A stretch of 64,000 bases of DNA from positions 16,723 through 80,722 of the forward strand of contig JAAFIG010000021.1 of the NCBI GenBank assembly GCA_013298595.1. Direction: 5' to 3'. Positions within the stretch are counted from its first letter, which is position 1. Every line of letters begins with the position of its first letter. A model generated the notes under the pieces. That model did not search any database. It was not told the DNA's origin and saw nothing but the letters and a program-made list of their open reading frames with translations. The position numbers and the translations under genes were made by a program. Of the stretch, positions 1-64,000 are shown one piece after another. Origin of the DNA: Deinococcales bacterium. GTDB lineage: Bacteria; Deinococcota; Deinococci; Deinococcales; JAAFIG01.

Positions 1-401
1 GTCGTAATGCTTGTTGGAAAGGCAAATTGGTAGTGCTAGTCAATCAATTCAGTGCCAGTGGTGCAGAGTACACCGCTCAGCTTTTTCAAGACGAAAAACG
101 GGCTCATATTATTGGCGAACAAACATATGGCGCTGGCAATACAGTTTCACGTGGCAATACATTACAAAACCGAGGCGCAATCAGTATTAGTATTGCCCGC
201 TCGAGACGATTTTTAGATGGTACATACAACCCTGCTTTTGTCACACCTAACACTGTTCTGTTCGAGAATCCAGAGCGTTTACAACAAGGTATTGATGATT
301 TACTCGAGGCTGCACTTGGAAAAGTCACAATAGCTTTACAAAAACCACAAGGCATAACACATCAAAAACTCCCCATTTCGTTTAGTGTGATAGAAAACTA
401 A
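1..401 (+). CDS. S41-family (C-terminal processing) peptidase, 3' end only
   Basis: The frame is open from base 3 to the TAA at 399-401, so the gene begins left of the window. The visible part carries the S41 nucleophile region NQFSASGAEYTAQLFQD, in which the serine of SASGAEY corresponds to the catalytic serine of CtpA/tricorn-core proteases. It is followed by the usual GEQTYGAGNT loop. Serine peptidases of this family degrade or trim envelope proteins. A second S41-like gene lies at 2386-3723, so the two may have belonged to one locus that an IS200-like element now splits. Signal peptide and PDZ domain cannot be judged. Confidence 0.8.
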   Translation, partial: RNACWKGKLVVLVNQFSASGAEYTAQLFQDEKRAHIIGEQTYGAGNTVSRGNTLQNRGAISISIARSRRFLDGTYNPAFVTPNTVLFENPERLQQGIDDLLEAALGKVTIALQKPQGITHQKLPISFSVIEN

Positions 402-406
402 ACAAC

Positions 407-955
407 TATGCACTAAAGTGCATAGGTTTCAGACGGACTCAAAGTCCCACTCAATCTTCCAATATAAACGCGTCCCGACTTGCACTTGATGGGCTTCTAT
501 GATGTTCCAAATACTTCGTTACCACTTCTTCCGTGATATTCCCTGTACTCCACACCCCATACCCTACTGCCCAAAAGTGCTGTCCCCAATATCGTTTCTT
601 GATGCTCGGAAATTCTTGTTGCAACAGTCTTGATGTTCGCCCTTTTAATCGTTTGACAATATCGCTCACATTCAGCTTTGGAGGATACTCGATCAATATA
701 TGCACATGGTCTTTGCTCACAACACCTTTCAAAACTACAATATCCTCAGCTTCGCATATTTGGATAATCAGTTCCCGACACCTTATTTTGATGTCCCCGA
801 CCAAGATGTGATACCGATACTTCGTCACCCACACGATATGCGCGGTCAGTCTCGAGACACTATGACTTCCAGAACGCGTTCGATTCACTCGGCTATCTTA
901 CACAGCTCCTATAAGTGGGTAGCAACTGAAAGTCTTGCACTAAAGTGCATGGTTT
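407..955 (-). mobile_element. IS200-like element with matching hairpin ends
   Basis: A single Y1-transposase gene is flanked by two near-identical hairpins: TGCACT-AA-AGTGCA at 409-422 (8-bp arms at 407-424) and again at 936-949. Both are followed by GGTTTC in the same orientation. Subterminal hairpins without terminal inverted repeats or target duplication are typical of IS200/IS605 elements, which move as single-stranded DNA. Exact tips cannot be fixed without an empty site. The element sits 20-25 bp from the start of the next gene. Confidence 0.7.
451..888 (-). CDS. tnpA: IS200-type transposase TnpA (HUH/Y1)
   Basis: The 145-residue protein has the family's normal length. It shows the opening HIVWVTKYRYHIL, the metal-binding HUH motif in KDHVHILIEYPP, and a C-terminal helix with the catalytic tyrosine in EEVVTKYLEHH. 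All active-site residues are present, so the gene looks intact. The enzyme nicks and joins single-stranded ends at the hairpins that flank it. No TnpB/IscB partner is present, so this is a minimal IS200-type element. It contains one CTCGAG, so it may have resided here long enough to pick up the host motif. Confidence 0.9.
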   Translation of the reverse strand: MNRTRSGSHSVSRLTAHIVWVTKYRYHILVGDIKIRCRELIIQICEAEDIVVLKGVVSKDHVHILIEYPPKLNVSDIVKRLKGRTSRLLQQEFPSIKKRYWGQHFWAVGYGVWSTGNITEEVVTKYLEHHRSPSSASRDAFILED

Positions 956-974
956 CCACCAGCGAGTTGGGACA

Positions 975-1733
975 ATGAATATCACCGACTTCTCGAAAAA
1001 AACAGGTATTGGTACGGATAGTTTACGGCACTATGATCGTCTAGGCTTGCTCTCCCCTACTCGCCAAGAAAATGGTTACCGCAATTACACAGATAAACAA
1101 CTCGAGACAGCCGCACAAATTCGGGCATTACGAGATTTAGATGTACCACTCGAGGAAATTGCTTTACTGCTTCAAGGCAGTATCAGCAATGCCGCACTAC
1201 TCGAGCAGCACGAAGCCCGTTTATTAACCCGTTTTGTCGCGCAACGCAAAGCGCTAACAACATTACAAGGTTTATTGCGTGGTAAACGCCGCAATAATAC
1301 GCTCGAAGTACAAGAAATGATTTTGCCTGCTAGTCATATCCTAAGCATTCGAGCCTTAGTGACTTGGGATGACATTGCCACTTTTCGTACAGAAACGACA
1401 CTCGAGTTTCAAACATTACTAGAAAGTCAAAAAGCCATTGCGGTCAACCAACCCATTGTGCTGCAACATAATCTTGATTTCGTCGTAGATCAATTAGACT
1501 TAGAGGTACTGATACCAGTTTCTAAAGCATTACATGGCAACGGTAGAATTCGAGCTGGACAGATGCCACAAATACGATTGATTTTTACTAAAAATACGCA
1601 AAAAGCCAACAACGCATTACCTGTGTACAAAAAATTATTTCAACACCTTGAGAATCAAGGATTTCGTACTGGCATTGCAGTTTGGCTCGAGGGTAGCAGC
1701 TCAATTGGTTTTGAAATTTTGGAGGCATCATGA
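975..1733 (+). CDS. MerR-family regulator with GyrI-like effector domain
   Basis: The N-terminal winged helix-turn-helix is of MerR type (DSLRHYDRLGLL, then ENGYRNYTDKQL), followed by a dimerisation helix. The C-terminal half resembles the BmrR/GyrI ligand-binding fold (ALPVYKKLFQHLENQGF). Such regulators bind hydrophobic compounds and activate nearby transporter or membrane genes. I start at ATG 975: an ATG at 945 lies inside the IS hairpin and would add ten unrelated residues. The stop overlaps the next start (ATGA at 1730), so it is co-transcribed with the membrane protein and S41 gene. Confidence 0.85.
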   Translation: MNITDFSKKTGIGTDSLRHYDRLGLLSPTRQENGYRNYTDKQLETAAQIRALRDLDVPLEEIALLLQGSISNAALLEQHEARLLTRFVAQRKALTTLQGLLRGKRRNNTLEVQEMILPASHILSIRALVTWDDIATFRTETTLEFQTLLESQKAIAVNQPIVLQHNLDFVVDQLDLEVLIPVSKALHGNGRIRAGQMPQIRLIFTKNTQKANNALPVYKKLFQHLENQGFRTGIAVWLEGSSSIGFEILEAS

Positions 1734-2377
1734 ATATATACTCGGTTTTGTTAATACTGCATATTGGCGCTGGTTGTATTACGTTAGTAACAGCTTTGAT
1801 TGCTACGCTCTCTAAGCAACTCGAGGCAAAACATCATATCCATGTCATCAGTGGAAAAATCTTTGCTATTGCGATGTCAATTATTTTTCTGACAGCTTTT
1901 CCAATGTCATTAATCAAATTTAATTTATTTTTACTACTAATTTCGGTTTTTAGTTTTTATATGATGCTGGCAGGTTGGTTATACGCTACCGACCGCAAAG
2001 GCAACCGCGCCAATGTATTACTAATTGTCTCGAGTATCATGTTAGTTGTCAGTACTGCCATGATTGGTTTTGGTATTTGGGCAATACTGAACGGCAATAG
2101 CAGCGCAATTCCAGTTTTTGTTTTTGGCGTGATTGGTACTTTACTCGCTCGAGCCGATTGGCTGGTTGCCCGAAAAGGTGGCGCGAAAGGAAAGTTTCGC
2201 ATTGCCAAGCATTTAGCATCAATGCTTGGAGCAACCATTGCAGCAGTTACGGCGTTCTTGGTCAATGTTGTTCAACTCGGGGGGTTTTTGGGTATTGCCA
2301 TGTGGTTGTTACCAACTTTAGTTTTAACACCTATTATTGTGATGCAAAGCCGTAAAGTGCAAAAAACAGTACAGTGA
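1730..2377 (+). CDS. DUF2306-like multi-pass membrane protein
   Basis: The 215-residue protein is almost entirely hydrophobic, with about six to seven predicted membrane segments. It has an N-terminal LLILHIGAGCITLVTAL and a loop with HIHVISGKIF that resembles the His-containing loop of DUF2306 proteins. No catalytic motif is evident. It overlaps the upstream MerR gene by four bases and abuts the downstream S41 gene, so the three form one operon. A second, better DUF2306 match is at 37139. Function unknown; a regulator-controlled export or stress role is only inference. Confidence 0.6.
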   Translation: MNIYSVLLILHIGAGCITLVTALIATLSKQLEAKHHIHVISGKIFAIAMSIIFLTAFPMSLIKFNLFLLLISVFSFYMMLAGWLYATDRKGNRANVLLIVSSIMLVVSTAMIGFGIWAILNGNSSAIPVFVFGVIGTLLARADWLVARKGGAKGKFRIAKHLASMLGATIAAVTAFLVNVVQLGGFLGIAMWLLPTLVLTPIIVMQSRKVQKTVQ

Positions 2378-2385
2378 TAGCGTTA

Positions 2386-3723
2386 ATGAAAAAACGCCTG
2401 ATAACCATTTTGCTTGTTTTACTCGCGCCGATTCCCATTATTCTGTTGGGATTGTACGGGTATGCTTGGATGGCTTTTGGACTCAATCCAATTGCCCTAA
2501 CTCGAGATATTGTCATGCTCCCCTTGCTCGAGTTACCTAATGATTTATTACAACTTGCCAGTCGTCCAAAACCAAGTCCTACACCCACACCAGCACTTAC
2601 TCGAGTAGGGCGTTGGCAGCAAGACCTCGAGTACTTATACAAAAATTTACCCAAATTACATGTGCAACCGTGGGCAAATACCAATCAGCGAACCTTCCAA
2701 GCTCGGACTGAAGCGCTTTCTAAACTGATTCCAACTGCTTCAGATACTGTACTACTGGCAGAATTCTCGAGTATTGTAGCCAGTTTAGGTGATGGTCACA
2801 GCGAATTATATAGTTTAGGCAGCACCATGCCTCGGCATCGTTTACCAGTGCAATTGAAATGGTTTAACCAGCAACTTTGGATTGTGGCAACCACACCCAA
2901 ACACGCCAATTTATTTGGACTCGAAGTGCTTAGCTTCGATGGTGTCAGCGCCTCAGAAGCTGCTCGGCGCATTCTGCCCTTTGCTCCAGCCGAAAATACC
3001 ACAGCCCAACTCAAAGCCACTGCCACCAGTTTAGGAATACTCGAGTTACTGCGCGGCGCGGGTATACGAGGTAATACAACAAGCATTCAGTTAGAACTCC
3101 GCAATACCCAAGGACAAAAAAGCACAGCGCAACTCGAGGGTTTAACAACGGCTATCTCGTACAGCAAAATGCTCGAAAAACCTGCACTATATCAACAAAA
3201 CCCCGAACAAGATTTTTGGTACAAATATCTCGAGCCGCAACAAATAACTTACTTAAAACTCAATAGTTTCAGCAATTTACTTGGTTTTTGGCAATTACTC
3301 GAAACCATACGCAACGAATCTCGAGTGAGCAAAAAATTGATTGTAGACCTGCGTGGTAACGGCGGTGGCAGTGGTTTACTGATACCCGCCTTACTCGAGA
3401 TCATTCGTTTCAAAGGTACACCCGCGTATGTTCTCACCGACCGTGATTCATTTTCAGCCGCTGTCAGTGCAACAGCTGCCCTAATAAAAATGGGTGCAAA
3501 ACACATCGGAGAAGCTCCAGGGCAAAAACCAAATTACTGGGGAACAGCCCAAATTTTTACTTTACCAAACTCGAAATTCGAGATTCAGTACGCCACTACC
3601 TTTGAACAAAATGTGGAAGGCAACCCCAATCAACTCGAGCCAGAAAAAATAGTTATACCCACTGCTAAGCAATACTTTAATAGCCAAGACCCTGTTCTCG
3701 AGACTGTACTAGCAGAGAAATAG
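2386..3723 (+). CDS. Membrane-anchored S41-like peptidase
   Basis: An N-terminal hydrophobic anchor (LITILLVLLAPIPIILLG) and a Pro/Thr linker (PKPSPTPTPALTR) lead to an extracytoplasmic domain. The S41 core is recognisable from LIVDLRGNGGGSG and the catalytic-serine segment LTDRDSFSAA, followed by MGAKHIGEAPG. The length, 445 residues, suits an S41 protein without an obvious PDZ domain. A GTG at 2374 would overlap the upstream stop; ATG 2386 gives a cleaner signal anchor. It is the third gene of the MerR operon. Substrate unknown; the general base was not identified with certainty. Confidence 0.75.
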   Translation: MKKRLITILLVLLAPIPIILLGLYGYAWMAFGLNPIALTRDIVMLPLLELPNDLLQLASRPKPSPTPTPALTRVGRWQQDLEYLYKNLPKLHVQPWANTNQRTFQARTEALSKLIPTASDTVLLAEFSSIVASLGDGHSELYSLGSTMPRHRLPVQLKWFNQQLWIVATTPKHANLFGLEVLSFDGVSASEAARRILPFAPAENTTAQLKATATSLGILELLRGAGIRGNTTSIQLELRNTQGQKSTAQLEGLTTAISYSKMLEKPALYQQNPEQDFWYKYLEPQQITYLKLNSFSNLLGFWQLLETIRNESRVSKKLIVDLRGNGGGSGLLIPALLEIIRFKGTPAYVLTDRDSFSAAVSATAALIKMGAKHIGEAPGQKPNYWGTAQIFTLPNSKFEIQYATTFEQNVEGNPNQLEPEKIVIPTAKQYFNSQDPVLETVLAEK

Positions 3724-4212
3724 CTATACACCAAGTTGGCGCTGAATGCTATTCAAAACAAACCAACTTGCTATGGTCACAAAAATCAGCAGAATAGCTG
3801 TCCAAACAAATTCTCCTGGGTCTTGCTGAATCAACAAAAACAATAAACCCGCGAAACCCAGTCGGACAAAACCAACTGTAAACACTTGTAACGCAGCCAC
3901 CCGAAACACTGATCGATACCAACGCAAACTCAGCAGTGGCATAGCAATAAAGATAAAACCAATGCAACCAGAAATCAGCACAACAAAAGCAATATTCTTG
4001 GAATTTATATTGTTACCCACAGTTAAAAAAATCATAACAACGGCAGGTGTCACAAAACTCTCGAGGGCATTAAGGGCAATAAAGCGCTTCACCAAAACAC
4101 CAAAAAGGTTAGAGTGCCGCGCCTTAAACCCCCAAATAATTCCCAAAATTCCTGACACAACAGCACACGTCAAAGCACAAATAATCATCAAATCAAGTCC
4201 AAGACCAAACAT
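3724..4212 (-). CDS. Small membrane protein, tandem paralogue 3
   Basis: This is the last gene of three adjacent minus-strand paralogues. The 162-residue, four- to five-helix protein shares the family signature: a first helix ending in GxxGxxW, then A.HSN.FG..VKRFIALNALESFVTPAVV, as in its neighbours. The spacer to the upstream paralogue is about 20 bp. I do not recognise a named family. The conserved asparagine, glutamate and proline in the second helix are unusual for a membrane segment and may be functional. Its stop abuts the convergent S41 gene. Confidence 0.65.
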   Translation of the reverse strand: MFGLGLDLMIICALTCAVVSGILGIIWGFKARHSNLFGVLVKRFIALNALESFVTPAVVMIFLTVGNNINSKNIAFVVLISGCIGFIFIAMPLLSLRWYRSVFRVAALQVFTVGFVRLGFAGLLFLLIQQDPGEFVWTAILLIFVTIASWFVLNSIQRQLGV

Positions 4213-4233
4213 GACTCGAGTGTACAGCGTAAT

Positions 4234-4755
4234 TCAAAGTTGTGTTTTTAACTTACTTTGCACATCGTCCAGCAAAAACAAACTCACTATGGTAACAATT
4301 ATCAGGCAAACCAAAATAAGACTAAAGCCAATGAGTAGACTATTCTGCGAGGCAAGATCAGTATTTTGCAACGTAACGATTACCAGCAAACCAAGCAAAG
4401 CAATGCTAACTCGAGCTAAACCAATTTTCAGCACTTGCAACGCCATTTTTCGGTAAACCAAATTCGTCCAAGATAAACTCGAGAGTGGTTGCAAAATCAG
4501 CACCAAAGCAAGTAAACCAACAGCTGTTCCAATCACAGCAAAATTTTTGGAATCTGCTGCACCAAGTAATAAAAGTAAATTTGGAGTGGCAAATATTTCG
4601 ATAGTATTACAGTCAATAAGCACCTTGACTCTAGCGCCAAACGGGTTGACATGTTGTGTTGCCATCAACCAAAAAAAGCCAAGAATACCTGCAATAACAG
4701 CACAACAAACAGCCAGTAAAATTAATAGAACAAATAAACCAGCACTTGAATTCAC
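4234..4755 (-). CDS. Small membrane protein, tandem paralogue 2
   Basis: This 173-residue middle copy has the same layout as its neighbours: helix 1 with AGILGFFWLMA, a loop QHVNPFGARVK, and helix 2 NTIEIFATPNLLLLL. It is the most diverged copy (VLIDCNTIE in place of RFIALNVLE). About five hydrophobic segments are predicted, with no soluble domain. It is probably translated from the same transcript as the other two, the gaps being about 20 bp. No function can be assigned. Confidence 0.65.
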   Translation of the reverse strand: MNSSAGLFVLLILLAVCCAVIAGILGFFWLMATQHVNPFGARVKVLIDCNTIEIFATPNLLLLLGAADSKNFAVIGTAVGLLALVLILQPLSSLSWTNLVYRKMALQVLKIGLARVSIALLGLLVIVTLQNTDLASQNSLLIGFSLILVCLIIVTIVSLFLLDDVQSKLKTQL

Positions 4756-4775
4756 AGCTCGAGTGTACTGCGAAT

Positions 4776-5267
4776 TTATTCGAGTTTACTCACTTGACGT
4801 TGAATACTTGTCAGCAAAAACCATCCTAGGATAGTAAAAACCAGTAATACTAAAAAGATAGCAAAGAATTCAACTTGATTACTTTGAACAGCCAGTAAAA
4901 AAATGGCTGCCAAGCCCACTCGAGTTAAACCAATGGCTAAAACCTGCAAAGCAGCATTGCGATACTCTTGAATCTGCCAGCGTAAACTGGAAAGCGGCGG
5001 TAGTAGCAACGCCAACGAAACACTCACAGCTATGAGTACAATTATTGTTAAATTCTCCTCGAGGTCTTCGTGTCCCAAGATCAGCACAACCGCTGGTGTT
5101 GCAAAGCTCTCAAGCACATTCAAAGCAATAAATCGTTTCACCCAAACCCCTAACGGATTAGTGTGCTGCGCTTTGAATAACCAAATCAAACCCAGAACTG
5201 CTGGAATACAGACACAAGCCACAGCCACAGCAATAATGGCAACAATCAGCACTTGCGTCGAATCCAT
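4776..5267 (-). CDS. Small membrane protein, tandem paralogue 1
   Basis: This is the promoter-proximal copy, 163 residues, about five hydrophobic segments. The signature reads GLIWLFKAQHTNPLGVWVK then RFIALNVLESFATPAVVLIL. A TAGGCT hexamer lies six bases before the ATG and no Shine-Dalgarno is visible, consistent with a leaderless mRNA starting here and running through paralogues 2 and 3. Three such copies in a row indicate local duplication followed by divergence, perhaps forming a hetero-oligomeric membrane complex (inference). Confidence 0.65.
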   Translation of the reverse strand: MDSTQVLIVAIIAVAVACVCIPAVLGLIWLFKAQHTNPLGVWVKRFIALNVLESFATPAVVLILGHEDLEENLTIIVLIAVSVSLALLLPPLSSLRWQIQEYRNAALQVLAIGLTRVGLAAIFLLAVQSNQVEFFAIFLVLLVFTILGWFLLTSIQRQVSKLE

Positions 5268-5322
5268 TTACTTAGCCTATAACACATCGAAGTCAACTGC
5301 ACCGTTTACAGCTCAGCACAAC

Positions 5323-6720
5323 CTATTCTTTAGAGTATGTCATCTCGAGCGGAATCACCCACTGGGTAAATTCGTCATCGGTAACGAACCCAAGTTTTAA
5401 AGCAGCTTCGCGTAAACTTAACCCTTCTTTGTGGGCTTTTTTCGCAATCGCTGCTGCTTTGTCATAACCAATATGCCGATTTAGGGCTGTAACCTGCATC
5501 AGATTTGTCCCCAAATTCTGAGCGATACGCTCGAGGTTCGGTTCGATACCCTCGGCACAATTATCATTAAACGAAACACAGGCATCACCCAGCAAAGAAA
5601 TACTCTCGAGTACATTATGTACCATTACTGGCTTAAAGACATTGAGTTGAAAATTGCCTTGCGAACCCGCAAATGCCACTGTTGCATCGTTACCAAAAAC
5701 TTGGGCAACCACCATGGTCATCGCTTCGGATTGTGTTGGATTGACTTTACCTGGCATGATACTCGAGCCTGGTTCGTTTTCGGGGATATCAATTTCGCCA
5801 ATGCCATTGCGTGGACCACTGGCTAACCAACGCACATCATTTGCCATTTTCATTAAAGCACCAGCCAACGTCCGCAAGCTACTCGAGGTTGTGACTAAGG
5901 CATCATGAGCCGAAAGAGCAGCAAATTTATTCGGCGCAGAAGTAAATGGTAAACCTGTAATTTCTGCCATTTTTTGCGCTGCTAAATCACCAAATTTCGG
6001 ATGAGCATTTAAGCCTGTACCAACTGCCGTACCACCGATAGCTAATTCGTACAAACCTTTTTCGGCATGACGAATTTGCTCGAGACAAAAATCTATTTGC
6101 GCTACCCAACCACCAATTTCTTGCCCAAGGGTAATTGGCGTAGCATCTTGAAGATGGGTACGTCCAACTTTAACAATACTCGAGAAAAGTTCGGCTTTTT
6201 GATGCAGTGTATCGCGTAAAATTTTTACTTTTGGGTACAACTGCCGATGCAATTCTTCGACCACGGCAATGTGCATGGCTGTTGGAAACGTATCGTTGCT
6301 ACTCTGCCCACGATTGACATGATCGTTTGGATGCACAGGTTTTTTACTACCCAATTCGCCACCTGCCAAAGCAATGGCTCGGTTGCTAATCACTTCGTTG
6401 GCATTCATATTACTTTGCGTACCAGAACCCGTTTGCCAAACCACCAACGGAAAATGATCGTCCAGTTTACCCACGATCACTTCATCAGCAGCTCGAAATA
6501 CCAAATCAGCTACATCTGATGGCAACTGCCCTAACTCGGCATTGGCAAGTGCAGCCGCTTTTTTCAGTACACCAAGCGCACGAATAATAGCTCGACCCCA
6601 AATAAAACGATCCCGCCCAATTGGGAAATTCTGAATACTACGTTGCGTCTGGGCACCCCAGTAACGGCTCGAGTCCACTTCTAAAGCGCCCATTGTGTCT
6701 GTTTCAATTCGAGTTGACAT
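5323..6720 (-). CDS. fumC: Fumarate hydratase class II
   Basis: The 465-residue enzyme interconverts fumarate and malate in the TCA cycle. It begins [12 protein letters not shown]...YWGAQTQRS as in FumC proteins, has the [17 protein letters not shown] segment around residues 100-115, [17 protein letters not shown], and the superfamily signature [13 protein letters not shown] near residues 316-328. It is the oxygen-stable, iron-free class. A TAAAAT hexamer six bases before the ATG suggests a leaderless transcript. It is divergent from the lipoprotein gene at 6853. Normal length and all key motifs. Confidence 0.96.
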
Positions 6721-6789
6721 ACAAAGATTTTACCATTGCTCGAGCGGGGCGATATTCCTCACTGCTCGTATTGCTCTTATCACGAATTT

Positions 6790-6818
6790 TTAACAATCCA
6801 CTTTAGACTGTCTATAAA
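6790..6818 (+). promoter_or_regulatory. Sigma-70-type promoter for the lipoprotein/M48 operon
   Basis: TTAACA (6790-6795) and TATAAA (6813-6818) are separated by exactly 17 bp and lie about 35 bp before the lipoprotein ATG, which has a GGGGG ribosome-binding site. Sequence match only. Confidence 0.6.
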
Positions 6819-6852
6819 GCATGAATTGCTTACTTACACATGGGGGTTTTCA

Positions 6853-7413: not shown

Positions 7414-7425
7414 ATCTCGAGCCTT

Positions 7426-9573: not shown

Positions 9574-9607
9574 CCTGAATTCATTTTTACTGATTACACT
9601 TAATATT

Positions 9608-10748: not shown

Positions 10749-10753
10749 GATTT

Positions 10754-33412: not shown

Positions 33413-33601
33413 TTATTGTGGCGGCAACCCAAAACGCTGACGAACTTCTTGTGAGGTAAAATGCCGTCCTGCATCAATATCAGCTTGACCAGCTTCAACA
33501 GCTTGATGTACATAAATCGCGTACTGTAAATCTTCCCATGTTGCATCGTCAGGCAACTGCTCGAGCAAACGCTGGGCTTGTTCACGAATCAGGGTTTTCA
33601 T
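33413..33601 (-). CDS. Orphan antitoxin-like small protein
   Basis: 62 residues. AQRLLEQLPDDATWEDLQYAIYVHQAVEAGQADID and a tail HFTSQEVRQRF (quoted in parts) match small RelB/ParD-associated antitoxins of the 'LLEELPDDVSWED.. IYVREKVE.G..D...G....EEVK.RF' type. The partner toxin, usually a RelE/ParE-like protein of about 90 residues, is not adjacent on either side. It ends next to the putative acquired island. The longer open frame upstream of ATG 33601 is not protein-like. Confidence 0.7.
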   Translation of the reverse strand: MKTLIREQAQRLLEQLPDDATWEDLQYAIYVHQAVEAGQADIDAGRHFTSQEVRQRFGLPPQ

Positions 33602-33753
33602 GGGTATAAAGATACAACTAGAACTTAAAAGTAGCAAGAAAATAATGTAATTCGAGATTAAACCCCAACCCATAGTTCTTTTACAAAAGATACTACGCCA
33701 TGTCCGAAATAAATCGCTTGACTTCGAGTGAACTCTAAGGTTTAAGGTTAGGT

Positions 33754-34131
33754 ATGTCCATTGATTATTCAATTGCAGAAATTTCACAGCGAACAAAGCT
33801 AAGTGACCATACACTGCGTTACTACGAGCAAATAGGACTTATTGGACCTATTTTTCGCACAAAAGCGGGGTATCGTCGCTATCAGCAAAAAGACATTGAA
33901 GCCATTGAATTTGTTAAACATCTTCGGGCAACGGGGATGTCTGTTGCAGATATGACACGAATGGGTGAGTTGCGTGCTCAAGGTCTTCATACACAAGCAA
34001 CTCGGATGCAGATTCTTTTTAACCATCGCAACGCTGTGCGATTACAAATCAACGAATTAGAAGCTAACTTAATTGCAATAGAAGATAAATTAGCTTCACA
34101 TGGCTGGATCATTAATACAAAGGAATCATGA
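33754..34131 (+). CDS. MerR-family regulator
   Basis: 125 residues, a full MerR DNA-binding domain and coiled-coil with no effector domain: SIAEISQRTKLSDHTLRYYE, IGLIGPIFRTKAGYRRYQ, IEFVKHLRATGMSVADM. It lacks the metal-binding cysteines of MerR/ZntR, so it is of the aldehyde/oxidative-stress type (AdhR/NmlR-like). The stop overlaps the hydrolase start (ATGA). The pair lies in a 1.48-kb stretch with no CTCGAG, which suggests recent transfer. Confidence 0.87.
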   Translation: MSIDYSIAEISQRTKLSDHTLRYYEQIGLIGPIFRTKAGYRRYQQKDIEAIEFVKHLRATGMSVADMTRMGELRAQGLHTQATRMQILFNHRNAVRLQINELEANLIAIEDKLASHGWIINTKES

Positions 34132-35012
34132 CAATGAAAACACTAAAATCTTTCTTCAAAAGTGAAGCTGGCATCATTCATTACGAAATTCAGGGTGATG
34201 GTTTTCCTGTTTTAGTTGTACCAGGTGGTCCGGGTTCAAGTCATGGTAAGTTTCCCGAACTTGCTGCACATCATAAAGTTGTATATTTTGACCCACTTGG
34301 AACGGGTCAATCAGATCGTCTTGTTAACCAGCAGAGTTATACGGTGGAGCTATATGCAAAAACCATGTTGCAATTGCTCGATCACCTTGGTATTCAAACA
34401 ACGCATGTGCTAGGAGTGTCCTTTGGAGGTATTCCTGCGGCTGAGTTTGCTGCGTCTTATCCTGAGCGGGTCACATCATTGATTCTTTCCAATGCACAAG
34501 TAGATGCCCAAAGTTGGCAGTTGGGAAATATAGATGCCTTTAATCACCATATTCGTCATCAATACCCAGAAGTATGGGAAAAAATTATGAATCTCCGAGC
34601 GGCAGGAGTCTTATCAAATGACCCACGTTATCAAGACCTTTTAGCACTTCCCAATAAACAGATGTTGTGGGCTGGCGTTGACCCAATTGCACTTCCTCCA
34701 AGTGAGGAGGAAACATTTGATGAACACACGTATTTGGCATTTATTGGGAATGACCCTGAGTGGACAATCAATGGAACATTGTCTGGTCACACGGTTTTGG
34801 ATCGGCTTGCTCATTTGGGATTACCAACTTTGATTCTGACAGGTCGGCGCGATTTAATGTCTTCTCCTGCATTAGCAAAACGCATTGTAGATGCGTTATT
34901 GCCAAGCAAAACAACGCAAGTGATTTTTGAACGGTCTGCACATCGCCCTTGGGCTGAAGAACCAGATAGTTATTTTAATTTGCTATATACGTTTATGGAA
35001 CGCCTATCGTAA
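34128..35012 (+). CDS. Alpha/beta hydrolase (proline iminopeptidase-like)
   Basis: 294 residues. Oxyanion-hole region VVPGGPGSSHG, FDPLGTGQSDR, nucleophile elbow GVSFGG, aspartate in LILTGRRDLMSSP and histidine in ERSAHRPWAEE. The GGPG and the DPLGTGQS segment are those of proline iminopeptidase and related hydrolases. A MerR regulator is translationally coupled upstream and presumably controls it. CTCGAG-free like its partner. Physiological substrate unknown. Confidence 0.87.
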   Translation: MTMKTLKSFFKSEAGIIHYEIQGDGFPVLVVPGGPGSSHGKFPELAAHHKVVYFDPLGTGQSDRLVNQQSYTVELYAKTMLQLLDHLGIQTTHVLGVSFGGIPAAEFAASYPERVTSLILSNAQVDAQSWQLGNIDAFNHHIRHQYPEVWEKIMNLRAAGVLSNDPRYQDLLALPNKQMLWAGVDPIALPPSEEETFDEHTYLAFIGNDPEWTINGTLSGHTVLDRLAHLGLPTLILTGRRDLMSSPALAKRIVDALLPSKTTQVIFERSAHRPWAEEPDSYFNLLYTFMERLS

Positions 35013-35124
35013 AATAATTTTTACGACAGATTTGCCATAAACTTTGCTCGAGCAGAAAAGAAACTCACATTTGAAGGGTACACCAACTAATGTCAATATT
35101 CACTTTTCCTGAAATAAATTAATT

Positions 35125-55444: not shown

Positions 55445-55462
55445 CATCGGAGAAAATAACAT

Positions 55463-56281: not shown

Positions 56282-56283
56282 CC

Positions 56284-57048
56284 GTGGAAAGCCAGCCATT
56301 CTCGAGATTATCTATCGTTTACGACGCAATTTTTGCTGATGTCGAATACACCGATTGGTGCGAGTTTAGTCTCGAGGTACTCCAAGAACTTGGTTGGCTT
56401 GAAGCAAAAACAGGATATAAACTGCTCGATGTTGCTTGTGGAACAGGCAACAGTGCTCTGCCCTATCTTGAACGAGGATTTATTGTTTCAGGAGCCGATG
56501 CCAGCGCTGATATGCTCGAGATTGCTAAGCAAAAATTAGACAATGCATCATTATTTCAACAAAGTTTTCTTGAGTTAAACACAGGTCAGCAATACAAAAT
56601 CATCACTTGTCTATTTGATAGTTTAAATAATTTGCTTGCACCAACCGATCTTGAAAATGCACTACAAAGAATTTATTTGCACCTCGAGTCAGAAGGGGTT
56701 TTTGTCTTTGATTGCAACACCCCACTTGGTGTTACAGACCTCTGGGATGATAACGAATTCAAAGGCGAAGTCCGCCTCGAGAATGGCTTAGCGCATTACC
56801 ATTGGACACACCAAGCCTTAGAACCCAACCTCGGTGAGGTAACAGCCCAAATCTGGATTATGGACACCCAAGGGGCATTACAACAAGAATTCAGCGAAAC
56901 CCATCTTGAACGAGGTTACACCCATACCCAACTCGAGACACTGCTACAAGCTGTTGGTTTTGCCGAAACACATTTTTACGAATACCCAGATGGCGCAGAT
57001 GTCACCAGTCAAACCCCACGCTTTTGGGGGTTCGCTAAAAAAACATGA
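56284..57048 (+). CDS. Class I SAM-dependent methyltransferase
   Basis: 254 residues from GTG, two bases after the previous stop. SAM-binding motif I is LLDVACGTGNSALPYLERG, motif II acidic loop SGADASADML, and motif IV CLFDSLNNLLAP. It is not CheR-like (no CheR N-terminal domain). The tight spacing places it in the chemosensory operon, where it could be incidental. Small-molecule or protein methylation; substrate unknown. Confidence 0.83.
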   Translation: MESQPFSRLSIVYDAIFADVEYTDWCEFSLEVLQELGWLEAKTGYKLLDVACGTGNSALPYLERGFIVSGADASADMLEIAKQKLDNASLFQQSFLELNTGQQYKIITCLFDSLNNLLAPTDLENALQRIYLHLESEGVFVFDCNTPLGVTDLWDDNEFKGEVRLENGLAHYHWTHQALEPNLGEVTAQIWIMDTQGALQQEFSETHLERGYTHTQLETLLQAVGFAETHFYEYPDGADVTSQTPRFWGFAKKT

Positions 57049-57076
57049 TTGCTCAAAATTTTTGCTTGCCTAAAAC

Positions 57077-57110
57077 AAAAAGACGAAGGCAGCCTGCACC
57101 TTCGTCTTTA
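57077..57110. terminator. Bidirectional terminator
   Basis: AGACGAAGG (57081-57089) pairs with CCTTCGTCT (57099-57107) and A/T runs flank it. It separates the chemosensory operon from the convergent peptide transporter operon. Confidence 0.85.
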
Positions 57111-57133
57111 ATCTTTGAACTTTTTACCTGACC

Positions 57134-58147
57134 TTAAAGCACATCATCACGAATACAAGCTTTGAAATGCCCAGGTGCCACTTCTTTTAATTCGGGAATG
57201 GTGTGTTCGCATTCGGTAATTTTGTAACGGCAACGAGTACGGAAAACACAACCACTTGGTGGATTAATTGGCGAAGGAATATCACCCTCGAGAATAATGC
57301 GTTCACGCTTAATGGTTGGATCAGGAATAGGCGCAGCCGACAACAAAGCCTCTGTGTATGGGTGCTTGGGATTGGTGTACAACTCGCGGCTCGGCGCAAT
57401 TTCCATAATCCGCCCGAGGTACATCACCACAACGCGGTCGCAGATATACTCCACAACTGATAAATCGTGAGCAATAAACAACATGGTTAAACCAAGATCG
57501 CGTTGCAAATCCTCGAGCAAATTGACCACTTGCGCTTGAATACTGACATCCAAAGCCGAAACAGGTTCGTCTGCCACAATAAATTTTGGGTCTACAGCTA
57601 ATGCTCGAGCAATACCAATACGTTGACGTTGCCCGCCGCTAAATTCGTGCGGATAACGCCGCATATGATCTGGACTAAGCCCAACTCGACGCAACAAATC
57701 CGCCACGCGATCCACTCGAGCTTGACCTTTAGCCAAATTATGAATCAGCAAAGCCTCACCAATGATATCGCCCACTGTCATACGCGGATTCAAACTGGCA
57801 AATGGGTCTTGGAAAATAATTTGCATTTCCTTGCGGTACTCACGCATCTCGGATTTCGAGAGCTTCACCACATCCACGCCATTAAACTTCACTTCGCCAG
57901 AAGTTGGTTCAATTAAACGCAGCAACGCACGTCCAGCTGTGGTTTTACCACTACCAGACTCACCCACCAAACCAAGCACTTCGCCTTTAGCAATCTTAAA
58001 AGAAACATCGCTCACGGCTTTGACATTCGCCACAACTCGAGACAACAAACCACCACGAATTGGGAAGTACTTAACCAAATTATTGACTTCTAAAAGCGGC
58101 ATTTCGGTTGTGTTAACAGGTTTTTTATCAAGCATCGGTGCAGTCAT
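57134..58147 (-). CDS. Peptide ABC transporter ATP-binding protein (OppF/DppF)
   Basis: 337 residues from ATG 58147, which follows AAGGAG; a TTG six bases earlier is less likely. Walker [11 protein letters not shown]-loop [15 protein letters not shown], signature [15 protein letters not shown], Walker [13 protein letters not shown], and the C-terminal oligopeptide-transporter cysteine region ([20 protein letters not shown]). Last of five genes of the importer; overlaps the OppD stop. It energises uptake with OppD. Confidence 0.94.
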
Positions 58148-58149
58148 GA

Positions 58150-59166
58150 TCAAAGCTCCTTCCAGCGAATGCAGCGGCTCATATGCCCACTACCAGTATC
58201 CTCGAGAGCCGGAATGGCTTCTTTACAAGCATCAATTGCGAATTTGCAACGCGGATGAAAAGCACAACCACTTGGTAAGTACAACGGATTTGGCACATTA
58301 CCAGGAATTGCCTCGAGCCGTTTTTGATCCACCACACCATGATCTACCCGAGGAATACTATTGAGCAAACCCATGGTGTACGGATGCTTTGGTTGTTTGA
58401 AAATCTCAACCACATCGCCTTCTTCGACCACACGCCCACCATACATCACCACAACACGATCAGCCATTTCAGCCACCACACCAAGGTTATGGGTGATAAA
58501 CAAAATACTCATACCGATCTCGCGTTGCAACTTACGCATCAAATCAAGAATCTGGGCTTGAATCGTCACATCCAAAGCCGTGGTTGGTTCATCAGCAATC
58601 AAGAGTGCTGGATTACAAGACAATGCCATCGCAATCATTACCCGTTGACGCATACCACCCGACATCTGATGCGGATAATTGGTCACACGACGACGCGCCT
58701 CTGGAATACCCACCAACTCGAGCATGGTAATAGCCACTTCCATCGCTTCTTTTTTGGTTTTCCCTTGATGCAACACCACTGCCTCAGCAATTTGGTCACC
58801 AACGGTATACACGGGGTTTAAGCTGGTCATGGGTTCTTGGAAAATCATCGAAACTTCGTTACCACGAATTTTTCGCATTTCTGCTTCGGACAGCTTGGTT
58901 AAATCCCTTGGCGTACCATCACGACCACGGAAAATAACGGTGCCATCAACAATTTTACCCGGAGGGCTAGGGATCAGCCGCATAATACTCAGGCTTGTAA
59001 CACTCTTACCACTACCCGATTCACCCACCACTGCCAGTGTTTCACCTTTTTGAATATGAAAAGTGACACCATCAACGCTTTTGACCACACCTTCATCAGT
59101 GTAAAAATACGTTTTTAAGTTATTCACCTCGACCAGCGTCTCACTGCTACTCGGCACATTAGCCAT
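58150..59166 (-). CDS. Peptide ABC transporter ATP-binding protein (OppD/DppD)
   Basis: 338 residues. Walker [19 protein letters not shown]-loop [13 protein letters not shown], signature [17 protein letters not shown], Walker [13 protein letters not shown], and the C-terminal [17 protein letters not shown] motif that binds a [4Fe-4S]-type or structural metal in relatives. AGGAGG-like AATTCCTCC lies upstream of the ATG in antisense. It forms a heterodimer with the downstream OppF-like protein. Confidence 0.94.
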
Positions 59167-59205
59167 AATTAAATTCCTCCAAAAAAGATGAGCGTAAGTG
59201 TAACA

Positions 59206-60348
59206 TTATTGGCGTTTACGTGGGTCAAAAGCATCACGCAAGCCGTCTCCAAGAAATTGCCAACATAACACAGCAAGTACAATAAAGAACCCCGGAATCA
59301 ACATCCACGGACGATAAATAATACTGGCGAAACCACCCTCTTGAGCTTGGTTAATCATTGAACCCCAACTTGAATATGGTTCACGAATACCTTTACCCAA
59401 AAAGGAAAGCCCTGATTCTGCAAGAATTGCACTCGGAATACCCAAAGATAAATTCACAATTAGCAAAGAGAATGTGATTGGTAACATATGAATACCAATA
59501 ATTCGTGCTTCTTTAGCGCCAAGGCTAGTAGCCGCTTGTACCATGTCAGACTCACGCAATGCACTGATTTGAGAACGAACAGTTCGTGCTAAACCACCCC
59601 ATCCAATAAAGCCAAGTAGAAAAATAATGCCATAAAAAACCAGTATTGGATCTAAATCTTGGGGTAACACAGAGGTTAGTGTGAGCAACAAAAACAGTGA
59701 TGGGATTGCTCCAATAATTTCAACTAAACGCATAATGACATTATCAACCCATCCGCCGTAATAACCAGCTATACCACCGAATATCAATCCAAGTGTAGTT
59801 GAAAGTGTCACTGCAAAAATACCAATAGTTAAACTGACAGCAGCCCCATACCAAAGTCTCGAGAACACATCACGTCCATACAAATCTGCACCCATAATAA
59901 AGATATTACACGGCTGACTGACACCAAATAATCGAATGTTTGTTGGGATAAGAAAGAACAGATTATATGGTTGATCCGGACGAGGCATCATAAATTGAAC
60001 TGGACATTTGATATCTTTTTGATCAATAAATGTTTGAGCAAAAGTCACAGGATCAAGATCTTGTTTTGTTGCATAAACAAAAGGTGCTGTTAAACGACCA
60101 GATTCATCAAAAAAATGTACTCGTGTTGGTGGATGGAATCGCGTGATATTTGAAGTACTGTACTCCGCTAAACCATATGGTGAAATAAATGGAGAAAAAA
60201 TTGTACCGATATACATTGCCAGCAAAATCATGCCACCAAATAAAGCTAGTTGGTGTTTACGAAATTGTTCCCAGACAACCTGCGTCCGAGATTTAGCATA
60301 TGGCGCCATGCCTTCACGAGCATCTGGATTTAAAGAAGAAGTACTCAT
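59206..60348 (-). CDS. Peptide ABC transporter permease (OppC/DppC)
   Basis: 380 residues. N-terminal helix with preceding RTQVVWEQFRKHQLALFGG (typical OppC_N), a long extracytoplasmic loop of about 100 residues, then the permease core with the EAA motif SLGAKEARIIGIHMLP. About six helices. The loop between the first two helices carries FFDESGRLTAPFVY and two cysteines (DIKCPVQF and QPCNIFI) that could pair outside. Overlaps the OppB stop by a base. Depleted in CTCGAG. Confidence 0.92.
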   Translation of the reverse strand: MSTSSLNPDAREGMAPYAKSRTQVVWEQFRKHQLALFGGMILLAMYIGTIFSPFISPYGLAEYSTSNITRFHPPTRVHFFDESGRLTAPFVYATKQDLDPVTFAQTFIDQKDIKCPVQFMMPRPDQPYNLFFLIPTNIRLFGVSQPCNIFIMGADLYGRDVFSRLWYGAAVSLTIGIFAVTLSTTLGLIFGGIAGYYGGWVDNVIMRLVEIIGAIPSLFLLLTLTSVLPQDLDPILVFYGIIFLLGFIGWGGLARTVRSQISALRESDMVQAATSLGAKEARIIGIHMLPITFSLLIVNLSLGIPSAILAESGLSFLGKGIREPYSSWGSMINQAQEGGFASIIYRPWMLIPGFFIVLAVLCWQFLGDGLRDAFDPRKRQ

Positions 60349-61331
60349 CAGAAATACCTAATTCGCGGATCAACCACCGCAAGTAAAAAGTCAGAAATCA
60401 AATTACCGATCACCAATAAGACTAAAGAAACAGCAGTTGTGCTGAGTAACACGTAGATATCTTGGCTGTTAATTGCCTCAAGAAAAACTGGGGTTAGACC
60501 AGGCCAATTAAAAACCACTTCGATAAATCCAGCGCCTGAAAGTATAGCTGGCAATAAGCCCCCTATACCCGCAATAAATGGCGTGAGTGCATTTCGCAAT
60601 GTATGTTTATAAATGACAGTACGCTCAGCTAAGCCTTTTGCCCTCGCTGTTCGCACAAAGTCTTGATTTAAAAACTCGAGCATCTGAGCACGAAAAGTTC
60701 GGGATAGCCCAGCAATGTCACCAATCAGTAAGGCTAACATAGGTGCCATGATATGCCAGAGAATATCTAAGAATTTACCAATGAAACTGAGTGAATCAAA
60801 ATTTTCAGAGGTCATACCACCAACGGGTAATAAAAACGTTCCTGTCTGTAATTTAAATGATACAAGAGCAAAAATAATTAGTAATGCCAGAAAAAAAGAA
60901 GGAAATCCAATAAAGAAATATGAAATTAAGCTAATCACTTTATCGCCTAAACTGTATTGCCGGATCGCCCCATAGATTCCTATTGGAACCGCAATTAAAT
61001 ACAACAAAATAAGTTCACCAAATACCAGCATAGCGCTATTGGCAATTTTAGGCGCGATTAAATCCCAGACAGCAATATTGCTATCAAACGAAATACCAAG
61101 ATTGCCTGTCACAAAATTACCAAGCCAGCGTATATATTGTTCTGGTAAACTTTTGTCCAAACCAAATTGACGTTCAAGACGTTCGATAGTTGCTGCTGTT
61201 GTACGAACATCCAATTTGCGTTCATCCAAGAAATTACCTGGCGCAGCTTGAATAACAAGGAATGTCAACATAGTTGCCCCAATAAAGACAGGGATTAGGT
61301 TGAGAAAACGTCGAAGTATAAATCCTAGCAT
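60348..61331 (-). CDS. Peptide ABC transporter permease (OppB/DppB)
   Basis: 327 residues from ATG 61331 (GAGAG upstream); the longer frame covers the hairpin that separates it from the binding-protein gene. It starts LGFILRRFLNLIPVFIGATML as OppB proteins do and has an EAA motif in RTARAKGLAERTVIYKHTLRN. Six helices. It forms the translocation channel with the OppC-like subunit. Confidence 0.92.
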   Translation of the reverse strand: MLGFILRRFLNLIPVFIGATMLTFLVIQAAPGNFLDERKLDVRTTAATIERLERQFGLDKSLPEQYIRWLGNFVTGNLGISFDSNIAVWDLIAPKIANSAMLVFGELILLYLIAVPIGIYGAIRQYSLGDKVISLISYFFIGFPSFFLALLIIFALVSFKLQTGTFLLPVGGMTSENFDSLSFIGKFLDILWHIMAPMLALLIGDIAGLSRTFRAQMLEFLNQDFVRTARAKGLAERTVIYKHTLRNALTPFIAGIGGLLPAILSGAGFIEVVFNWPGLTPVFLEAINSQDIYVLLSTTAVSLVLLVIGNLISDFLLAVVDPRIRYF

Positions 61332-61358
61332 TTCAGTCTCTCTTATTTTTTGCGTGAC

Positions 61359-61384
61359 CGAGGGCGGGAAAATTCCCGCCCTCG
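61359..61384 (-). terminator. Hairpin between binding protein and permease genes
   Basis: CGAGGGCGGGAA (61359-61370) pairs with TTCCCGCCCTCG (61373-61384): 12-bp arms, GC-rich, no long T-run. It probably stabilises the binding-protein mRNA or gives partial termination, so that less permease is made. Confidence 0.65.
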
Positions 61385-61398
61385 AGAGATTGCTTAAA

Positions 61399-63144
61399 TT
61401 ATTGTGCAATCCAAGTTAAGTCAATATTGCGTGAGCCATTGACTGAGTTTCCAATGGTTGTCGCATATTCGCCACGAACGCGGGAGTTCCATGTGAAGTG
61501 TACATTTGGTGAAACCAAGTAAACCCACGCTTGTTCAGCACTTTGTGTATCTTGAACTTCTCGAGTAATGGCAACACGCTTTGCAGTATCCAGTTCTTGG
61601 CGACCACGTGCGTACAAAGCTGTAACTTTGGTTTCCCAAGCAGCAAGGCATGTTCCTGAACCGTTAAAGGCATGTAAGTTGGTACCACATGGTTCAACAT
61701 TTGAACCCAATGGGTAAACACGGCTACCACCAGACAGACCAAGCAAAATAGCATCGAATTTACGGTCATCGCCTGTTGAAAGCAACTGTGCTACTAATGT
61801 GTTGAAGTCAATTGGACGGAAGTTGACTTTCACACCAGCTTTCTTCGCTTCGTCAGCAAAAATCTTTGAATATGCTTCACGAGTTGTATTACCAGCATTG
61901 GTTGACAAATCGAACTCGAGTACTTTACCTTCGCGGTTAACTAAGTAACCATCTGCATTTTTCTTGGTAAAACCAAGTTTGCCAAGTAATTCAGTAGCAG
62001 CTTCGAGATTGTAATCATATTTTTTAGCTGTTGGTGAAACCCATTGCGTAAAGGCAGCATAAACACTTGTGTACGCTGGTTGACCTAAACCGCCAAGTAC
62101 GATGTTAATCATTGCAGCACGGTTAGTAATGTGGCTCATAGCACGGCGGAAGTTTGAATCACGGAAGATTTTTTGTTTAAACGGATCAGATTTGCGATTC
62201 CAGTTCCAAACAATCCATTGGCTGCTGGCTGCTGCACTGACATTTGGACGCAGCACAGCTTTCAACCCGCCTGAGTCCGTAGACGCTTTGATCTGACGTA
62301 AATCGTCGGCATTACGAACGCCGAAGGTATCAAGATTACCTGCAAGGTAAGCTGCAAATGCAGCATTTTGATCTTTGACAATAGTGTAGTTGTAACCATC
62401 TAAGTATGGAAGTGCACCACCAGCAGAGTCTTTATTCCATTCACCATAGGTAGCACTACGTTCAAATGTAGCACGTTCACCAGCACGGTAACCTGTTGGT
62501 TTCCACTGACCAGAGAATACCAATTCTTCTGGTTTTGTTGCCAAAGACCACATGGCTTTGATACCTGCTGCGCCTTTACTGGCATAAACAGGAGCAAAAA
62601 TGTGGGAAGGCCAAGGATCATACGCGGCTGTAGCGATTGCATCAACATCTACCGTTGGAAAGACGATTTTAATTGTATCGTTATCGACTTTAGAGATCAC
62701 AATTGGTTTTTCATTGATAAAGAAGCTATCGTAACTGTTACTGCCAACATCTTCATCTGTGTGGATTTTAAAAGTTGTAACCCAATCGTCTGCAACGATA
62801 GGTTTACCATCTGACCACTTCATACCTTTACGGATGTTAACTGTCCAAACAAGTTTATCCTTAGAGACTGTATAGCTTGAAGCCATATAAGGAATATATT
62901 CGCCTGCTGCTGGATCAAAGCGGAAAAATCCACCAGCCGACATCACATCAGGAAGATTGGTCGCTTCTGCTGTTGTAAACGGGTTATAGGTCTTAAACTC
63001 CGAAATCGAAAAATCGCGGTACGTACCCCCACGTTTTGCTTCGGCTGGAGCTGTAACGCTCCATTTTGCTGGGTGAACAAACGCTTGTGCTGCGGCGCTG
63101 CTGCCCAACGCCATTGCAGCTAATGCTACTAGTGCTTTCTTCAT
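61399..63144 (-). CDS. Peptide ABC transporter substrate-binding protein (family 5)
   Basis: 581 residues. Signal peptide KKALVALAAMALGSSAAAQA; no lipobox cysteine, so probably soluble or anchored otherwise. Family 5 features: GGTYRDFSISEFKTYNPF near the N-terminus, GMKWSDGKPIVADDWVTTF, and FRRAMSHITNRAAMINIV. AGGAGG five bases before the ATG. First of five genes of the importer. It lacks CTCGAG for about 1.2 kb, which may reflect strong codon constraint. Confidence 0.93.
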   Translation of the reverse strand: MKKALVALAAMALGSSAAAQAFVHPAKWSVTAPAEAKRGGTYRDFSISEFKTYNPFTTAEATNLPDVMSAGGFFRFDPAAGEYIPYMASSYTVSKDKLVWTVNIRKGMKWSDGKPIVADDWVTTFKIHTDEDVGSNSYDSFFINEKPIVISKVDNDTIKIVFPTVDVDAIATAAYDPWPSHIFAPVYASKGAAGIKAMWSLATKPEELVFSGQWKPTGYRAGERATFERSATYGEWNKDSAGGALPYLDGYNYTIVKDQNAAFAAYLAGNLDTFGVRNADDLRQIKASTDSGGLKAVLRPNVSAAASSQWIVWNWNRKSDPFKQKIFRDSNFRRAMSHITNRAAMINIVLGGLGQPAYTSVYAAFTQWVSPTAKKYDYNLEAATELLGKLGFTKKNADGYLVNREGKVLEFDLSTNAGNTTREAYSKIFADEAKKAGVKVNFRPIDFNTLVAQLLSTGDDRKFDAILLGLSGGSRVYPLGSNVEPCGTNLHAFNGSGTCLAAWETKVTALYARGRQELDTAKRVAITREVQDTQSAEQAWVYLVSPNVHFTWNSRVRGEYATTIGNSVNGSRNIDLTWIAQ

Positions 63145-63239
63145 GCCATCCTCCTAAAGTTTAGCTGACCAAGGTTTGGTCGGTCTTGCTCGAGTGCAGA
63201 GATTCTGAACTGAGTTCAAGAGTTGTGCTAACGTTGTTG

Positions 63240-63268
63240 AGAATATCAGGCTGGTGTTTGAACGTCAA
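63240..63268 (-). promoter_or_regulatory. Promoter of the peptide transporter operon
   Basis: On the minus strand TTGACG (63268-63263), 17-bp spacer and TATTCT (63245-63240), 96 bp before the binding-protein ATG. A further upstream direct repeat TTGTGTCAAG occurs twice, at about 63319-63340. Confidence 0.6.
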
Positions 63269-63351
63269 GCTATTTGGCTTAGTGAATTTTAACGTATACG
63301 ACGCTTAAATAGTCTTTTCTTGACACAACCTTGACACAAAAAGGGCAGACA

Positions 63352-63381
63352 AAAACCTCGAGCCTTTATACTCGAGGTTTT
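63352..63381 (-). terminator. Terminator of secG, stem built on CTCGAG
   Basis: AAAACCTCGAG (63352-63362) and CTCGAGGTTTT (63371-63381), loop CCTTTATA; on the minus strand the stem ends in TTTT. Confidence 0.82.
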
Positions 63382-63400
63382 AAAAATAGTATAATGGGAG

Positions 63401-63637
63401 TTACAGACGAATTAAATTGAGTGCAATTGCAAGAACAATAAATGCCGCACCACAGTAAATGGTTAGGTTTACAAGCACACCACCTGTACCGCGTCCGCTC
63501 ATAAAGTCCGATGCACCACCACCACCAAGACTACCTGATAAACCACCTTGTTTTGGTTCTTGGAGAATGACAAAGTAAATCATGATTGCTGCAACGAGCA
63601 AGAAGATAATCAGTAGGAGTGTAAATAAAATTGCCAT
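63401..63637 (-). CDS. secG: Preprotein translocase subunit SecG
   Basis: 78 residues with two membrane helices: LFTLLLIIFLLVAAIMIYFVIL and VLVNLTIYCGAAFIVLAIAL, joined by the SecG loop QEPKQGGLSGSLGGGGASDF. The length is that of Gram-positive/Deinococcota SecG. I start at ATG 63637, after AAGGAAC; the frame upstream of it runs into tRNA-Leu. It assists SecYE in export and is probably co-transcribed with tRNA-Leu. Confidence 0.93.
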   Translation of the reverse strand: MAILFTLLLIIFLLVAAIMIYFVILQEPKQGGLSGSLGGGGASDFMSGRGTGGVLVNLTIYCGAAFIVLAIALNLIRL

Positions 63638-63668
63638 AAGTTCCTTATCTAAAACATTTAGGTGCTTG

Positions 63669-63751
63669 TGGTGCCGAAGGGGGGACTCGAACCCCCACGG
63701 TTTCCCGTCCGATTTTGAGTCGGGTGCGTCTACCAATTCCGCCACTTCGGC
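63669..63751 (-). tRNA. trnL: tRNA-Leu (anticodon CAA)
   Basis: The 83-nt cloverleaf has acceptor GCCGAAG, D arm GGCGG/AATTGGTAGACGC, anticodon loop CTCAAAA (CAA), variable arm ACGGGAAACCGT that forms a 4-bp stem, a canonical T loop TTCGAGT, and encoded CCA. It reads TTG codons. It precedes secG on the same strand. Confidence 0.93.
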
Positions 63752-63781
63752 TGACACGACTTACCACTTGGTAGCCGTGGG

Positions 63782-63810
63782 AGTGTATCACCTTGTTTGC
63801 TTTTCGGCAA
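63782..63810 (-). promoter_or_regulatory. Promoter of tRNA-Leu and secG
   Basis: On the minus strand TTGCCG (63810-63805), 17-bp spacer and TACACT (63787-63782). Transcription would start about 25 nt before the tRNA. Confidence 0.6.
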
Positions 63811-63849
63811 GGGTATTTTTGGTTAGTTTACTTAAACTCGAGTTAAAAA

Positions 63850-64000
63850 TTAAAACCCAATGGCTTTTAGGTACTCGAGAAAAGGGGCACTGCCTGTTAG
63901 TAGGGCGATCAATGCACCAATAGCAAGCGACGGTCCAAATGGCATAACACTTTCGCCACCTCGAACTTTATGAATAATGCCGATGACTGCACCAATGGCG
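63850..64000 (-). CDS. pilD: Prepilin peptidase, C-terminal fragment
   Basis: Reading the minus strand from the edge gives IGIIHKVRGGESVMPFGPSL, then AIGALIALLTGSAPFLEYLK and the stop at 63852-63850. The FGPSLAIGALIALL helix after a short charged loop is the C-terminal end of type IV prepilin peptidases (A24), which process pilins and pseudopilins in the membrane. The catalytic aspartates lie beyond the window. It fits with the pilus chemosensory operon. Confidence 0.82.
   Translation of the reverse strand, partial: AIGAVIGIIHKVRGGESVMPFGPSLAIGALIALLTGSAPFLEYLKAIGF

Follow-up and report, generated by a model that had tools for sequence, protein, structure and literature searches.

CTCGAG is the highly iterated palindrome of a lineage outside the cyanobacteria, a little-known family related to Meiothermus, and its hyper-abundance is confirmed in the window (the whole analysed stretch, 64,000 bp) as well as in the 4.58 Mb draft genome from which the window comes (G000). 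The window contains 361 copies, approximately one per 177 bp, throughout genes, in all three frames, and spacers. This agrees with the first-pass annotation, which had proposed one copy per 180 bp or so and whose count of 56 in bases 1-10000 was reproduced exactly, where 1.7 are expected from base composition. Over the whole window, base composition predicts 11.7 copies, which corresponds to a 31-fold excess. In 200 simulations under an order-1 Markov null, a window held 6.2 copies on average and never more than 14, and an order-3 model built after masking the motif expects 6.3, for an excess of about 57-fold. As CTCGAG contains about 69% of the TCGA of this genome, Markov models of maximum order are useless for this word. 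Among all 6-mers, CTCGAG is by far the most over-represented, and the second palindrome, TTGCAA, reaches only 2.6-3.1x. The enrichment is not restricted to the window, nor is the genome-wide count close to a Markov expectation: 27,159 copies are spread across the genome, one per 169 bp, and the reversed word GAGCTC occurs 15 times. The sparser parts of the window, and a gene lying in one of them, are the following:

57000..64000, unstranded: sparse stretch with 18 CTCGAG in 7 kb (2.6/kb), across an oligopeptide-type ABC transporter operon.
61399-63144: extracellular solute-binding protein family 5 gene, in the ABC transporter operon of the sparse stretch.
33560..35046, unstranded: longest CTCGAG-free gap of the window, 1,487 bp.

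Other palindromes are very strongly avoided beside this excess. In samples of G000, G001 and G003 (L030-L056, L062-L064, L070-L076), GGCC reaches only 0.01-0.03 of its expected count, with GAGCTC and AGGCCT close to absent.

Word counts were taken over 111 genomes of the phylum. The family of the window is placed within Deinococcota, in the order of Meiothermus, and a fumarase scan recovered Meiothermus taiwanensis as a named relative. The three other genomes of the family (G001-G003) contain 26,619, 27,118 and 28,178 copies, so that all four lie between 26,600 and 28,200. In the sister family, G012 (21,868 copies in 3.5 Mb) and G016 (14,690 in 1.9 Mb) are as dense as the family of the window, G008 has 13,552 in 3.8 Mb, and G004 has only 683 in 2.3 Mb. 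Meiothermus-like genomes exhibit a moderate enrichment, and high-GC genomes reach a few-fold excess through codon preference. The labels Thermus-, M. ruber-, Marinithermus- and Truepera-like are presumptive for the comparison genomes and were given in part from base composition. A sequencing or assembly artefact is ruled out by the four separate assemblies, by the conservation of orthologous sites and by the amino-acid excess described below.

The placement of the motif was analysed in 464 kb of the G000 genome. ORFs contain 6.0 CTCGAG per kb and the remaining DNA 5.4 per kb, which is 30.8x over local composition in coding DNA and 34.7x in noncoding DNA, and the density is level along ORFs. 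Since coding and noncoding enrichment are about equal and the density is flat along ORFs, CTCGAG does not act as a signal at the level of peptide, RNA or promoter. The 2576 coding copies are distributed as 1477, 620 and 479 over frames 0, 1 and 2, and together with the noncoding copies they bear out the earlier observation that all frames and spacers are occupied. The related claim that the codons CTC, CGA and TCG are largely bound to the motif is partly right: 54% of CTC codons touch it, and the proportion falls to 37% for CGA and 31% for TCG. GAG codons touch it in 53% of cases.

The Leu-Glu dipeptide is 2.36-fold over its expected count in G000, where CTCGAG writes 69% of it. The excess amounts to 2.1-2.5 in G001, G002, G003 and G012, 1.9 in G008 and 3.05 in G016, the last from a very small sample, and the ratio is 0.94 in the motif-poor sister genome G004 and 1.01 over 79 unrelated loci. 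No excess is observed for Leu-Asp, Glu-Leu or Val-Glu. As the dipeptide itself is raised, the DNA word has altered proteins, beyond the choice of codons.

Resident DNA is where CTCGAG accumulates. Methyltransferase genes contain 3-5 copies per kb and metH contains 10 per kb. An AT-rich island (33% GC) at G000:C66 (L045 7590-11147), which is likely a recent acquisition, contains one copy in 3.6 kb versus about 20 expected. The genes of this island include an ORF resembling methyltransferases, accompanied by two more of defence type.

Copies of CTCGAG exclude one another at short range. Their pair correlation below 18 bp is 0.06-0.47 in G000, approximately 0.3-0.85 in G001 and 0.2-0.6 in G002, G003 and G012 pooled, whereas frequent control hexamers exceed 1 at most of these distances. 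Leu-Glu pairs encoded by CTCGAG show values of 0.06-0.11 at a distance of 2-3 codons, and this exclusion is much weaker among the Leu-Glu pairs of other genomes (0.53). At a spacing of 6-9 bp the enrichment drops nearly to background, as if a second CTCGAG within a footprint brought no gain. Neither long-range phasing nor a 10.5 bp periodicity was seen in the pair-correlation analysis.

The comparison of homologous sites, which the first-pass annotation had suggested, was carried out between G000 and G001 over 36 kb of aligned DNA at 73% identity; it is unpolarised, no outgroup being close enough to tell gains from losses. CTCGAG is identical at 144 of the 213 orthologous sites (68%), versus 20% for hexamers overall, and it ranks first against 253 frequent hexamers, whose mean conservation is 25% (sd 10%). 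The conservation extends to each frame (78%, 49% and 57%, versus the 20% baseline). Where a Leu-Glu pair is conserved, 96 of 107 (90%) remain CTCGAG, whereas comparable six-fold/two-fold dipeptides show a hexamer identity of 28%, and 19 of the 37 Leu-Glu pairs spelled otherwise in G000 are CTCGAG in G001. Words that differ from the motif by one base (one-offs) correspond to CTCGAG in 15 of 87 cases, about 9x the generic single-change rate (1.9%). These changes span several substitution types, with CTTGAG and CTCAAG converting most (7/22). Conversely, the rate at which a given one-off replaces CTCGAG is about 5x below the generic single-change rate. Because the comparison is unpolarised, the gain and loss figures jointly mirror the stationary excess and, taken alone, do not distinguish selection from biased conversion.

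Our tentatively favoured explanation is weak selection at each site, or drive, for the binding of a putative chromosome-wide protein at CTCGAG. The word would be the recognition site of a sequence-specific chromosomal DNA-binding (or DNA-modifying) protein and would be retained genome-wide by a weak advantage at each site. Mutation would create the motif, and selection or an equivalent directional drive would retain it, both between genes and within them in any frame, with enough force to alter proteins. Each copy would take up about 16-18 bp, and a second copy inside this footprint would add little, which could explain the near-background enrichment there. The selection strength 2Nes would be roughly 3-5, as estimated from the 31-fold excess together with synonymous Leu-Glu data. 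We infer the existence of the protein, its footprint and its role in chromosome organisation from a pattern with which selection or drive through such a protein fits best, because CTCGAG is conserved in all frames, uniformly dense, mutually exclusive at short range and indifferent to gene context.

The main rival, and a serious one, although rated lower, is methylation-coupled biased mismatch repair (the model of Elhai), a published model for cyanobacterial HIPs (PMC4390886). A CTCGAG methyltransferase would mark the site and methyl-dependent repair would convert near-misses, so that abundance would be a by-product. The positions of CTCGAG would likewise stay conserved if a biased repair pathway restored them efficiently, and counts at equilibrium cannot tell biased conversion and selection apart. 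The ninefold conversion of one-offs, foremost of CTTGAG and CTCAAG, is consistent with this model, as is the cognate methyltransferase of each alternate cyanobacterial HIP (PMC4390886). Moderately enriched Meiothermus-like genomes likewise carry a relative of the XhoI-type methyltransferase (about 52% identity) and no detected XhoI endonuclease. In contrast, the model does not predict the spacing exclusion, and the family lacks any close relative of the XhoI-type methyltransferase, the best full-length match being 27% identity, in G002 only. It is rated lower mainly because no methyltransferase common to the CTCGAG-rich genomes was found in the five Pfam families covered. DNA methyltransferases of PF00145, PF01555, PF07669, PF02384 and PF02086 (C5, N4/N6, Eco57I, N6 and D12 types) were mapped and clustered, and although each genome has methyltransferases, none of these five families provides an enzyme common to all rich genomes; the genomes are drafts at 91-94% completeness, specificity is unreadable from sequence and divergent enzymes can share it. 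The orphan CTCGAG methyltransferase proposed in the first-pass annotation was thus looked for in these families and not found. Repair bias, which it had also proposed, is ruled out in the family in its very-short-patch form (a Vsr endonuclease with a C5 methyltransferase), as the four family genomes lack Vsr; the cause may lie in a more general biased repair or in chromosome organisation, which that annotation had also listed. Vsr is also absent from G012 and G016, and G008 is the sole carrier among the genomes searched, its gene adjoining a C5 methyltransferase (G008:C11).

Individual enzymes were rejected as candidates. The C5 enzyme of G000 has close orthologs in G001 (74%) and G012 (59%) only. 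A loose C5 cluster covers five rich genomes, misses G000 and shares only about 27-37% identity. The C5 enzymes may instead match the observed avoidance of GGCC/CCGG. The gamma-class methyltransferase of G000 at C11, the catalytic part of which resembles M.TaqI (E 2e-8), has no ortholog found in G001-G003. At G000:C34 (L044 8650-10496), an N4/N6 methyltransferase gene is followed by an overlapping 275-aa ORF without a relative in the compared loci, possibly the endonuclease of the adjoining enzyme.

XhoI restriction-modification is ruled out as the cause, the endonuclease (PF04555) being absent from the rich genomes, with no match in G000-G003, G008, G012 or G016. Three species of family f4 possess XhoI-family endonucleases, as does one Truepera-like genome. 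Within the f4 genus, species with the endonuclease contain 1,390-1,947 CTCGAG, versus 3,640-4,718 in sister species. In L025-L027 (f4 genus g10) and in L028-L029 and L090 (G009), these endonucleases adjoin methyltransferases of two different classes, and one segment of the G009 endonuclease carries in-frame stops.

A purely context-dependent mutation bias toward CTCGAG, with neither selection nor a repair reader, is improbable. It is compatible with the uniform enrichment of coding and noncoding DNA, but the fivefold deficit of one-offs replacing CTCGAG indicates that sites are retained and not only gained. The short-range exclusion of copies also argues against it, as does the variety of one-offs that convert, which is unlike a single mutational signature.

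Even less probable is a DNA uptake sequence, with natural transformation preferring DNA that bears CTCGAG. Uptake drive, a class described in PMC1939737, can multiply short words across a genome. Nevertheless, fragment-level uptake would need several-fold fewer sites than one per 169 bp, which makes the uptake mark considered in the first-pass annotation unlikely, and CTCGAG is only 6 bp long and palindromic. The Thermus relatives are naturally competent; Thermus is not known to show an uptake bias. The uptake sequences of Pasteurellaceae and Neisseriaceae are similar in being short words in large genome-wide excess; CTCGAG is shorter, palindromic and several times denser. Finally, a preference for the Leu-Glu pair or for its codons (CTC GAG), suggested by the majority of coding copies in frame 0 and by the few-fold excess that high-GC genomes reach in this way, is ruled out as the cause by the equally high noncoding enrichment, by the conservation of frames 1 and 2, and by the lack of any excess of Leu-Asp, Glu-Leu and Val-Glu.

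A longer form of the word, the 8-mer CCTCGAGG, is amplified in related genomes. Within the family it is disfavoured among CTCGAG sites (0.34, 0.53, 0 and 0.32 of expectation in G000, G001, G002 and G003), and palindromic extension of CTCGAG is in general mildly avoided. In G008, CCTCGAGG is the amplified word, with 6,195 copies (43x; L078-L082, L236-L239), and CTCGAG outside it is at 5.4x, near the high-GC baseline. CCTCGAGG reaches 16-23x in Thermus-like genomes and 12-20x in Meiothermus- and Marinithermus-like genomes, with codon preference adding to the excess in high-GC genomes. It holds 81-85% of all TCGA in two Thermus-like genomes and 58% in a third, and TCGA outside CTCGAG is at 0.02-0.13 of expectation. 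In the Thermus-like G049 (L247-L250), G053 (L251-L254) and G046 (L234-L235, L240-L246), CCTCGAGG stands at 16-20x, an exception to avoidance of the TaqI type. An orthologous comparison in Thermus found 4 of 9 CCTCGAGG sites conserved, too few sites to judge. More speculatively, and with some doubt, CTCGAG (in the family and one sister genus) and CCTCGAGG (in G008 and the Thermus-, Meiothermus- and Marinithermus-like genomes) could be variants of one ancient order-wide chromosomal site. This site would be bound by a conserved putative nucleoid protein that covers about 18 bp, and would have spread in the family of the window to one per 169 bp, reshaping the proteome.

A viral scan for three close CTCGAG copies returned mostly high-GC contigs. 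Bases 1-2516 of contig IMGVR_UViG_3300017987_004407 (L379), at 42% GC, contain 12 copies in 2.5 kb (29x). This start of the contig may represent host sequence beside a provirus of a related bacterium.

The pattern supports the HIP-like reading of the first-pass annotation and belongs to the HIP class (sensu Elhai 2015): CTCGAG is palindromic, in excess genome-wide, present in coding and intergenic DNA, and conserved at orthologous sites. Like HIP1 (GCGATCGC, cyanobacteria), it is a palindrome in large excess across the genome, within genes as well as between them. It is not HIP1, since the word differs, CGATCG is strongly depleted (0.08x) and the relatives are Meiothermus-like. At about 5.9 per kb (5,900 per Mb), it is three to six times denser than HIP1, versus 1-2 per kb (1,000-2,000 per Mb) for published HIPs (PMC4390886); the passages on HIP1 in PMC6604393 give one per 1131 bp in Synechocystis 6803 and cite a statistical analysis (Xu et al. 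2018) according to which HIP1 is maintained by selection. The alternate cyanobacterial HIPs (GGCGCC, rCCGGy, GCsGC) are likewise palindromes of six-base scale amplified in a lineage. They are sporadic and have a cognate methyltransferase, whereas CTCGAG covers a whole family and part of its sister family, with no shared methyltransferase found. XhoI and PaeR7I also recognise CTCGAG, but as restriction-modification systems whose PF04555 endonuclease the rich genomes lack. A search of a partial literature collection found no mention of an excess of CTCGAG or CCTCGAGG in this group.

About three decades after HIP1 became known, there is, to our knowledge, no agreement on its function. CTCGAG is an independent case of a HIP, in a different phylum. 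Its sister lineages either share the word, are without it (G004) or bear the 8-bp form, and this contrast constitutes a natural experiment on selection versus methylation-coupled repair. The related excess of CCTCGAGG in Thermus-like genomes would carry the question to cultured, transformable organisms. A DNA signal can double a dipeptide proteome-wide, which matters for models of codon usage and protein evolution, and in this family the pattern points to a chromosome-wide function or a DNA-repair bias.
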